A stretch of 64,000 bases of DNA from Massilibacillus massiliensis (lineage in GTDB: Bacteria > Bacillota > Negativicutes > FLKF01): the NCBI RefSeq assembly GCF_900086705.1, contig NZ_LT575483.1, positions 1,138,735-1,202,734 on the forward strand, written 5' to 3'. Numbering within the stretch: position 1 is the stretch's first letter; each line of letters starts with the position of its first letter. The notes below the pieces were generated by a model. It saw only the letters and a list, made by a program, of their open reading frames with translations, had not been told where the DNA came from and did not search any database. This document shows, one piece after another, positions 24,776-53,643 of the stretch. Position numbers and translations under genes: made by a program.

Positions 24776-24857
24776 TGTATTTACTAAGAAACTTACGGCA
24801 AAATAATAGCACAAGAAATAAAGAATACATGCATCCTGTATACTTAATTGCTACCAT

Positions 24858-25046
24858 TTGTCTCTGTCCTTTTGCCTGAGAGATTTGCAAACAATTTTCA
24901 CTGTCTGTTTTCACCTTCGGCGACCCATTTAAGGGTACTCTCCAGAGTCCCGTCCATTTACGGTTCTACTCAAAAATTTTGAGTACCTGAGAGTGTTACT
25001 CCTTCGGTGGGCTAAATTGCCGCTCTTCCGTAGACTTCATCCGGTA
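24858..25046 (-). ncRNA. Tandem glycine riboswitch
   Basis: Read on the minus strand, two glycine aptamers follow each other. Aptamer I contains CACCGAAGGAGTAAC and ACTCTCAGGTA; aptamer II contains CGCCGAAGGTGAAAA and the diagnostic CTCTCAGGCAAAAGGACAG. These are the conserved GCCGAAGG and CTCAGG(C)AAAAGGAC blocks of the family. The RNA sits between a good promoter (25084-25112) and an intrinsic terminator (24742-24775) upstream of LivK paralogue 2. Most tandem glycine riboswitches are on-switches for glycine cleavage or export; here the target is a binding protein, so the direction of control is open. Confidence 0.92.
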
Positions 25047-50289: not shown

Positions 50290-50304
50290 GCAAAAGTTAT
50301 GCCA
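50290..50304 (-). promoter_or_regulatory. Sigma-54 (-24/-12) promoter of the PTS operon
   Basis: Minus strand TGGCATAACTTTTGC: GG and GC elements spaced by exactly ten bases, as in TGGCAC-N5-TTGC. Fits control by the LevR-type activator encoded upstream. Confidence 0.82.
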
Positions 50305-50420: not shown

Positions 50421-50482
50421 GATCCGTATACCTAATGCGTATTGCGATGCGTATCACATCCGTATCAAGATCCGTATCGCAA
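50421..50482 (-). promoter_or_regulatory. Iteron-like upstream activating sequence
   Basis: On the minus strand five units of the form (G/A/T)ATACG(G/C)AT follow each other about every 12 bases across 62 bases. It lies 120-180 bases ahead of the -24/-12 promoter, the right distance for an enhancer site. Further GTAT words lie nearer the promoter (near 50311-50337). Likely binding site of the LevR-type activator. Confidence 0.65.
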
Positions 50483-50489
50483 TAAAAAA

Positions 50490-50514
50490 AATGTCGCATT
50501 GTTCATGCGACACC
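50490..50514. repeat. Left direct repeat: duplicated terminator hairpin
   Basis: AATGTCGCATTGTTCATGCG plus ACACC, 25 bases, containing stem TGTCGCAT/ATGCGACA. On its left is a run of A, so for minus-strand levR transcripts this copy has the T tail of a terminator. Identical to 50758-50782. Confidence 0.85.
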
Positions 50515-50757
50515 CAGACTGTAGACAAATCATATATTTATGTTGATAACTTAGAAAAAACCGAAATTCGTTCCACTTATAAACTAGTACGAAGATAGGT
50601 TGCCGGTTGGTGAGAAGTACTCAGATGCTAGGCGCAGCAAGGGGTTGTGAAGGAGTCGTACTTCTGTACGTCGACGAGCAGCACCTTGCTGTAACAACGC
50701 AGATGAGTGCTTATCGCCAGCCCGCAACCTATCTGTCCATAGTTTGTCTACACACTG
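50515..50757 (-). mobile_element. Foldback element, copy B (243 bp) between 25-bp direct repeats
   Basis: Terminal inverted repeats CAGACTGTAGACAAA and TTTGTCTACACACTG (13 of 15 bases match). The interior folds along its whole length and is nearly identical to copy A at 25184-25425. It has no transposase, so if mobile it depends on one in trans, as MITEs do. The 25-bp direct repeats at both ends look like a target duplication. Confidence 0.75.
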
Positions 50758-50782
50758 AATGTCGCATTGTTCATGCGACACC
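50758..50782. repeat. Right direct repeat: duplicated terminator hairpin
   Basis: Identical 25 bases to 50490-50514, here followed by CTTTTTATT on the plus strand. It lacks a T run for the minus-strand levR transcript, so the original bidirectional terminator seems to have been split by the element. Confidence 0.85.
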
Positions 50783-50797
50783 TTTTTATTGCGATCA

Positions 50798-53500
50798 TTA
50801 TTTTTTCGTACCATTTAAATTGAAATGTAGTAACAGCATTTCTACAATATAAGCAAGTTCAGTATCCGGTATAGAAACACCAAATACTTCTTCTGCTAAG
50901 GTAAAACGTTCTCTAACGATTTGAAACAATTCACTTTTTTCCTGCTTGATTAAATCAAAATTATTGTATGGAAGCGGTTCTTTTCGAATAACACGTTCTA
51001 ACATGCAAGCACAGTGAAAAAAGAATTTTAAGCTGATGGTATCGTCTATTTCTTGATGATACGTTTTCATAATATCATGAAAGATTTCTTCTAATATCTT
51101 GCAAGCCTTTTGAACATTTAAAAACACAAGAATATTTTCCATCATTGCGACCACACGGCTTGAAAAAGGTTTTATAGACAGCTGAAGCTCATGATCACTA
51201 AATTTTATGGCTGAACGATCTTCTTCTACCTTAACACGTTCACCAATAAATGTACTCATTGTAATAACACTCTCTTCAACCTTATCCAATGTCATATTCG
51301 GCATCATAGCCTTTCTTGCTGCTTCTATTACCATCGGGGTACTCACCATACGAATCATACGCGTTGCAATGCCTGTTCGTTTTGTAATAATTTCAGGAAA
51401 AGTCGTCAATGATCCCATATCTACCAGAAATAAAACACCATTTCCTTGGTCAATCTGCTGCACAAGTTCAATCGCCGATTGCAGTATATCTTCAACTTTC
51501 GCTTCCATAGGCATATCTAGTGCATAAATGCAATCATACCCTAATAACGTTTTAGCAACTTCCACCATATTACTTGCAGTAGAATTTCCATGTGCCATAA
51601 CAAGTACTTGCACCATTCCACACTCTTTGACCTGCATGGAATGAAGAAATACTGCAATGAACGCCGTTTCATCATCCGGAATTTGCATGTTTAATACTTT
51701 TTCAATTCTTGATTTAATTTTTTTTGCAACAGCATATTCCTCAGGATATTTGTTACTCAACTTAACGATATCCGGATAGATTGTAATATTTCCTTGCCTA
51801 ATACGTTCAACTAAAGTTTCCATATGCAATGCTAAACCATAAATAACCTTTGTATCAACGCTATGTCCAAATAAGTGCAGAGCACAGCCAAATTCCTCTT
51901 CTATAATATTCACAATATCAGGCGTAGCGAGCTTAGATAGTATTTCTTGATCTATTTTTACATTATGAATCCTTGCTTTTGTCATTGTTTGATGCATACG
52001 CGTTTGTATCTTAGAATTGATATTTTCTTTTATTTCCGCAATTGAACGACCTTCGCTATACAATTTTTGGGCATTTTCTAAAATAAATTCATAAAAATCT
52101 TCACCAATTTGATATTCATCAAACAGTAATATATCGTTTAAATTTTCCTTTAAGCTAGTTTCATTTCCACTAAAGGTAATTGTCCCATAATCATTTAAAT
52201 TAAAATTCTGCATGATTTCTTTGCGTTTTTCATCCATTGCGAAAAAGCCTTCTCTAAGTTGTTCGGTCAGTTGAGATAATTTAATCTGTATTTCACCTTT
52301 TTTTGCTGTAACATATTCAATAAAAGCATTCGCACAAAGCAATTGAATATCATTACGCAATTGTCCGATATTTCCTTGACATTTATAAATTAATAAAACT
52401 TTTAATACTTCTTTTGATACTGTCAAAGGAACTTTTATTTTCATAGATTCTTCACGAAAAAATTGACAAATTAACAGCATTCTTATTTTTAAGGGGCGAT
52501 CATTTACCCCTGGAAGATTAATAATAAGCGGGATGCGTCGTAAAAAAGTGCTCAATACAGCTGCTTGCGGAGTTTCCGTCGTAGCTGCAATAATCAATAC
52601 ATTTGCTGAGCGAACACTCTCCGTTTCACCTAATCTTCGATATGACCCACGGTCAATTAAGGAAAATAACATTTCTTGGCCTTCCGGTGGCAATCGATGA
52701 ATCTCATCTAAAAATAAAATTCCACCATTGGCCTGATCAACCAGTCCCTTTTTTTCTCGATCCGCACCAGTATAAGCACCTCTTACATGTCCGAACAAGT
52801 GTGAAAGCAACAGCTGCTTATTTTCCGCATAATCTGCGCAATTAAAAATAATGTATGGTGCATGCACTGGCAGCTTACCAATCTGCACAGCATAACGGTA
52901 CATAACACCGGCAAATGTTGTTTTTCCACTTCCGGTAGGCCCAATGAGCAAGGTATGTAAACCATGTGGTGGATATAGGATTGCCGCCTTTGCTTGCTTT
53001 ATTTGTACTTGTAAATCATCATGCGCTCCAATAAGATTTTCAAAAACACCAGAATCAAAATTTTTATTTTGATTCTGGTGCTTATTTGCATCTTCTATCC
53101 CACTACGAATCAAGCGATTCGAGATAACACTAATCTTCGGCTCTTCGCTCAACCCTTCTGGCATAATTGAAGTTTTTAGATCAGAAAAACTTTTATATAT
53201 TACAGATTCTAAACGACAATGATACGTTGTTTCTAATACTGAAACCGCCAGATAAAATACTGGTTTTCCTGTTATTTTGATCGCTTGTCTCTCTTTAACT
53301 AATATATTTAATTCTTTGCTTACATTATTTCGAATCAAGCAGAGAGATTTGGCGATATTGTTTGCTGAAAATCCAATTGTTCTTTCCGCTGTAGGAATTT
53401 GCTTTACCAAAGATTCCGTTGCTTGGAACAAAAATTTAAAAACTTTATCTTTCCTAGTTTCCGTATTTGTTGAAGTTTCACTATCATATCGCAATGTCAT
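50798..53500 (-). CDS. LevR-type sigma-54-dependent PTS activator
   Basis: About 900 residues: N-terminal winged-helix region, sigma-54 AAA+ domain (about 165-400; Walker A GPTGSGKTT, GAYTGA loop for sigma-54 contact, Walker B GGILFLDEIHRLP), a PRD domain (about 440-550), an EIIA-Man-like domain (about 570-700, VLVMAHGNSTASNMVEVA with its His) and a second PRD near the C-terminus. It activates the adjacent mannose-family PTS with RNA polymerase-sigma-54, and PTS phosphorylation of the PRD and EIIA domains tunes it by sugar supply. The start is the ATG at 53500, with GGGAGAGG ahead; the open frame runs 25 codons further upstream. Confidence 0.93.
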   Translation of the reverse strand: MTLRYDSETSTNTETRKDKVFKFLFQATESLVKQIPTAERTIGFSANNIAKSLCLIRNNVSKELNILVKERQAIKITGKPVFYLAVSVLETTYHCRLESVIYKSFSDLKTSIMPEGLSEEPKISVISNRLIRSGIEDANKHQNQNKNFDSGVFENLIGAHDDLQVQIKQAKAAILYPPHGLHTLLIGPTGSGKTTFAGVMYRYAVQIGKLPVHAPYIIFNCADYAENKQLLLSHLFGHVRGAYTGADREKKGLVDQANGGILFLDEIHRLPPEGQEMLFSLIDRGSYRRLGETESVRSANVLIIAATTETPQAAVLSTFLRRIPLIINLPGVNDRPLKIRMLLICQFFREESMKIKVPLTVSKEVLKVLLIYKCQGNIGQLRNDIQLLCANAFIEYVTAKKGEIQIKLSQLTEQLREGFFAMDEKRKEIMQNFNLNDYGTITFSGNETSLKENLNDILLFDEYQIGEDFYEFILENAQKLYSEGRSIAEIKENINSKIQTRMHQTMTKARIHNVKIDQEILSKLATPDIVNIIEEEFGCALHLFGHSVDTKVIYGLALHMETLVERIRQGNITIYPDIVKLSNKYPEEYAVAKKIKSRIEKVLNMQIPDDETAFIAVFLHSMQVKECGMVQVLVMAHGNSTASNMVEVAKTLLGYDCIYALDMPMEAKVEDILQSAIELVQQIDQGNGVLFLVDMGSLTTFPEIITKRTGIATRMIRMVSTPMVIEAARKAMMPNMTLDKVEESVITMSTFIGERVKVEEDRSAIKFSDHELQLSIKPFSSRVVAMMENILVFLNVQKACKILEEIFHDIMKTYHQEIDDTISLKFFFHCACMLERVIRKEPLPYNNFDLIKQEKSELFQIVRERFTLAEEVFGVSIPDTELAYIVEMLLLHFNLNGTKK

Positions 53501-53643
53501 TATGCCTCTCCCTCTTATATAAAAATTACTCAATGATGCACTATTTACGATAGAAAATATCGAACTCCTGCACAATCAGACAAAATATCCAAAAGCTGTG
53601 AATAACATTTGATCCATTTTAGATGTCCTTTCTTTTTAGGCGC

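Follow-up and report, generated by a model that had tools for sequence, protein, structure and literature searches.

A non-autonomous foldback element (MITE) of 243 bp, at 50515-50757 of the 64,000-nucleotide stretch of DNA that was analysed (the window), lies between two identical copies of a terminator stem-loop. It is very probably a member of the ISEfa7-like group of the IS1182 family, whose transposase targets stem-loops, usually intrinsic terminators. Duplication of a whole hairpin, which in the literature searched appears solely as a hypothetical pathway, is seen here at insertions and by comparison with empty sites.

The element, delimited by its sequence, copies and fold and with no strand assigned, begins with the terminal inverted repeat CAGACTGTAGACAAA (50515-50529, plus strand), which is identical to the end of the ISEfa7-like and G015 insertion sequences (ISs) of the IS1182 family, and closes with TTTGTCTACACACTG (50743-50757, minus strand); with the right end reversed, the two match at 13 of 15 positions. 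Imperfect 15-base terminal inverted repeats, as proposed by a sequence-only reading of this DNA, are thus confirmed, and so are the two identical 25-base copies of a terminator hairpin, as the direct repeat AATGTCGCATTGTTCATGCGACACC (25 bp; no strand assigned) occupies 50490-50514 and 50758-50782 and is exact at 25 of 25 positions. An A run precedes the left copy and is kept with it, while a T run follows the right copy; the U run for leftward transcripts is therefore retained by the left copy and that for rightward ones by the right copy. The outer flanks ATCGCAATAAAAA and TTTTTATTGCGAT (50476-50488 and 50783-50795, no strand assigned) form an exact inverted repeat (I5), and when joined to one copy of the direct repeat they give a single long bidirectional terminator, ATCGCAATAAAAAAAATGTCGCATTGTTCATGCGACACCTTTTTATTGCGAT, of which they are the left and right outer arms. 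The suspicion that one bidirectional terminator had been split, with the A run on the left and the T run on the right, therefore held.

The 320 nt around the element fold at -145.4 kcal/mol, far more stably than their dinucleotide shuffles (z = -12.6). Only short overlapping open reading frames (ORFs; 81-99 aa) are found in the element stretch, which carries no gene, and a search of Rfam gave no match to the element or its core. Being short, non-coding and multi-copy, with terminal inverted repeats and a target duplication, the element has the traits of a MITE. Chance is ruled out as the source of the arrangement: no exact 25-base repeat would be expected over a distance of 500 bp, and the element recurs at least 40 times in the genome with other flanking hairpins.

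The right hairpin is abutted by the 3′ side of the upstream neighbour, a LevR-like sigma-54 activator ORF (50798-53575, minus strand; named from sequence), and the element separates this regulator gene from its PTS operon. Directly beside the element are a sigma-54-like promoter, TGGCATAACTTTTGC (50290-50304, minus strand), and CGTAT repeats (50425-50478), the latter probably sites at which the LevR-like regulator acts as an activator. The window also holds a glycine riboswitch (Rfam RF00504) at 24854-24955 on the minus strand.

The genome that contains the window (4.0 Mb, 98% complete) harbours at least 40 copies of the element at 83-100% identity, a lower bound since 40 of 110 candidates were scored; shorter, internally deleted copies with the same ends (L034, L035, L037, L038 and L045) are also present there. 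About 20 copies were found in G001, which belongs to another family of the same class, probably the Negativicutes. Different copies are flanked by different terminator hairpins, yet left and right match within a copy, in line with the sequence-only reading. Among the 14 two-ended copies from the own genome and G001, the left and right hairpins match each other in seven, a score equalled by none of the 182 cross-pairs, and a predicted hairpin, weak in a few cases, abuts at least one end in 13. For example, AAATAAGTCGCACAATGTGCGACTTATTT stands on both sides of L002 (29/29), while the older copies L029 and L038 have kept two hairpins with arms that changed together. In the other half of the two-ended copies, a matching pair of hairpins is no longer seen, which speaks against the main reading. 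In L006, L005 and L080, the flanking stems are identical or almost identical and the loops strongly different, by more than the divergence of the elements would suggest.

Within the element, an inner foldback region (50591-50738, plus strand) has dispersed copies in the own genome. It includes a core of 85 nt (CAGATGCTAGGC..GGAGTCGTACnnnnGTACGTCGA..CAACGACGCAGATG; 50622-50706, plus strand), a structured, class-wide repeat with paired (compensatory) changes in both arms. The model of this core, R1, has no Rfam family; its matches within the class extend to 78 of 300 genomes, spread over 40 of 97 genera, often with other ends. Such breadth, which includes rRNA spacers and other flanking stems, is what would be expected if the element were an ERIC-like repeat that had spread in some other way, its IS1182-like ends being incidental. 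This origin is nevertheless unlikely, since it is the ends, not the core, that abut the duplicated hairpins in the own genome and G001, and since copies without most of the core (L034, L037 and L038) keep their ends beside hairpins. The rRNA-associated cores are located in the 16S-23S rRNA spacer or close to it, immediately 5′ of the 23S rRNA gene (L077, L081, L070, L253 and L259-L261, in G004, G023, G126, G146 and G082). A second dispersed repeat, of about 105-117 nt with at least 40 matches and a terminal CTGCCGCATT..AATGCGGCAG hairpin, is fused to the left end and core of the element in about 20 composite copies (L043, L016, L021, L064 and others; G000:C6:1717170-1717378).

Assignment of the MITE to the ISEfa7-like group of IS1182 is based on its ends. 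The left end is identical at 15 of 15 positions to that of an autonomous member: in G015, CAGACTGTAGACAAA recurs without change on the upstream side of a 495-aa transposase, whose domains DDE_Tnp_1_6 (PF13751), DUF772 (PF05598) and DDE_Tnp_1 place it in the IS1182 family. The same end bounds IS1182-family transposase genes in Sporomusa malonica, and the copies on Enterococcus plasmids that PGAP names ISEfa7 have ends that are exactly CAGACTGTAGACAAA. Judging from this position, a DDE transposase of the DUF772/DDE_Tnp_1_6 type, as in ISEfa7, would act on these ends; ISEfa7 itself is an autonomous IS of 1.54 kb, whereas the window element is without a gene. Three insertions in G015, read from contig ends with the pairing of ends inferred from the repeats, are flanked by exact repeats of 41, 33 and 33 bp, each one whole terminator. 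A scan of named genomes with the G015 protein yielded 80 loci in Bacillota, including Sporomusa malonica, Desulfosporosinus hippei, Chakrabartyella piscis and Clostridiales CCNA10. Further IS1182 copies in the genomes studied, with ends GGGGCTGTCGC or GGCCACTGAAA, showed no repeat of a whole hairpin and fall on a branch of their own in the transposase tree. Because it includes a few long ORFs that were probably chosen in error (L286, L195 and L227), this tree serves only to show the separation of other IS1182 groups. Three more elements in G015 (L151, L152 and L153), with end CAGACTGTCGACAAA, adjoin terminator hairpins and share a different start (..GTGGGACGTTTTTTACACGAAGAGTTGAAGAAGGGA).

A transposase with matching ends, for which the sequence-only reading had asked, was therefore located in IS1182-family ISs of G015, Sporomusa malonica and Enterococcus (ISEfa7), and not in the own genome, where none with these ends was found in an assembly 98% complete. 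The only IS1182 gene of that genome, L032 (G000:C6:3770160-3771509), has an intact ORF, but an IS256-type element truncates its right end; it was rejected as the partner, as it shows 27% identity to the G015 transposase and has a different left end. Because the repeats of L001 and L002 are exact, suggesting recent movement, the transposase that moved the window copy has probably been lost or acted from another replicon.

A transposase normally leaves target-site duplications of one fixed length, which serve as its signature. In 41 distinct IS1182-type insertions, for which the ends were fixed at CAG...CTG before the direct repeats were read, the repeats range from 20 to 64 bp (median 29; 35 exact) and each coincides with a stem-loop, which excludes a fixed stagger. 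For 36 of the 41, the repeat folds end to end with an unpaired tail at neither end; thus the length of the duplication is that of the stem-loop. At least six uninterrupted Watson-Crick pairs run from the repeat ends in 29 of 41; among 8200 windows drawn at random from these loci, 5 show this. In about half of the duplications, the longest stem that can form reaches 1-5 pairs beyond the repeat, so that the cut would fall close to the outermost pair but not at it every time. Palindromic targets, as expected for the IS1182 family, were found in the 41 insertions and in the element copies alike. Nine autonomous copies have no exact duplication: one (L176) has a near-copy, and eight lie between two different hairpins, presumably through recombination between copies. 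In L214 and L217, the two hairpin copies share their stems and carry reverse-complementary loops (AGAT versus ATCT), a difference that may hint at how the gap is filled during repair.

Two empty sites prove that one hairpin is duplicated. In Streptococcus phage Javan87, an IS of this group lies between two copies of AACCGCTCTCTTAATCGAGGGCGGTT, and Javan90 is identical to it (580/580) minus the IS and one hairpin copy. Likewise, an ISEfa7-like copy in Enterococcus raffinosus p1_Er676 is flanked by a 21-bp hairpin repeat, TGGTATATCCATCGGATATGC, while the E. raffinosus plasmid pF162_2_1 has a single hairpin at the site that is filled in p1_Er676; in this hairpin duplication the ISEfa7-like insertion resembles the window element. 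An empty site for phiJH1301-3 was looked for and not found, and the S. suis pgmA terminator, tried as another, gave just partial matches to one side of the joined query. Insertion of a non-autonomous element with a long target duplication, the core of the sequence-only reading, is thus supported by matching flanks, related ISs and empty sites; the step from one hairpin to two is shown for relatives of the element and not for this copy, for whose site no empty version was found.

The same evidence bears on whether the hairpins were doubled before the element arrived, by tandem duplication or gene conversion of the terminator, a different element being inserted later between the copies. As short palindromes, terminator hairpins tend to rearrange, and the like stems and unlike loops of L006, L005 and L080 would suit such a history; it is scarcely credible, however, given that dozens of unrelated loci show the same layout around different hairpins and that the empty sites have a single hairpin. 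No tandem hairpins without an element were seen at orthologous sites.

Stem-loops, often terminators, are also the targets of IS1272 and TnSha1 (IS1182 family, Staphylococcus), by structure and not by sequence (PMC5678879, PMC4923244). The published outcome there is replacement or deletion of the stem-loop without target duplication, IS1272 replacing it (Wan et al. 2017; PMC5678879) and the terminators that are targets of IS1272/TnSha1 losing part of the target (Furi et al.; PMC4923244), whereas here the stem-loop is duplicated whole. A replacement of this kind, in which the element supplants a hairpin and the flanking hairpins are unrelated neighbours, has in its favour these reports from the same family and the separate IS1182 branch that is without whole-hairpin repeats. 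It is very improbable for the window element, as this and 41 autonomous insertions each lie between identical hairpins, and the two empty sites, which carry one hairpin, refute it for the group. Loss of the stem-loop as in IS1272 was not seen, the duplication being exact here and at the empty/filled pairs.

Group IIC introns, which are ribozyme retroelements, likewise insert at intrinsic terminators and are not known to make a target duplication; the window element shares terminator insertion with them but is without intron features. REP-targeting insertion sequences (PMC1525189) show a similar link of insertion to short intergenic palindromes, but those palindromes are repeats of related sequence, whereas the terminators here are unrelated. 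The outcome at the window element is exactly that of pathway (b) of Wan et al. 2017 (PMC5678879), in which 3′ ends join 5′ feet and the stem-loop is duplicated; there it is a hypothetical alternative in the model figure, whereas here it is met at 41 loci and two empty sites. No paper documenting this whole-hairpin duplicating mode was found in the literature searched, outside which lie ISfinder and the main reviews. In those sources, IS1182 members are listed with long, variable repeats.

Ends of this type also enclose cargo. In G035 and G016, transposase-less elements with the left end CAGACTGTAGACAAA carry a Thoeris pair, ThsA with a macro domain and the TIR-like ThsB, identified in G035 by PADLOC (E = 1e-130 and 1e-114, respectively) and recognised in G016 by sequence likeness. 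The G035 element (L154, G035:C46:16489-18713; 2225 bp) has both ends and lies within a duplicated 21-bp terminator hairpin. In its G016 counterpart (L160, G016:C1:1290530 onward) the left end is present and the right end was not found within the 3 kb read. An empty site for the Thoeris element was sought within its genus, where the flanks are not conserved, and none was found.

In the simplest account of insertion by the ISEfa7-like transposase, two element 3′ ends would be joined to the 5′ feet of the stem-loop, one per strand, and repair synthesis would then copy the stem-loop, leaving a whole hairpin on each side. The transposase would recognise an extruded cruciform or a folded strand, and the positions of strand transfer would be set at the stem-loop feet. 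Neither neighbouring gene would lose its terminator, such that duplication of the hairpin may spare termination of both neighbours.

More broadly, it seems reasonably likely that a widespread branch of DDE transposases, in Bacillota and in phages and plasmids, reads DNA shape rather than sequence and cuts at the feet of extruded stem-loops, so that the length of the duplication is set by the hairpin and an intact terminator hairpin is left on each side, with non-autonomous derivatives, and even a Thoeris pair, travelling on these ends. As the duplication here varies between 20 and 64 bp in step with the stem-loop, structure-guided DDE transposition becomes directly testable. Such targeting would account for how elements of this kind can accumulate in dozens of copies with no gene deprived of its terminator, and ends of this type bring a phage-defence pair into terminators.
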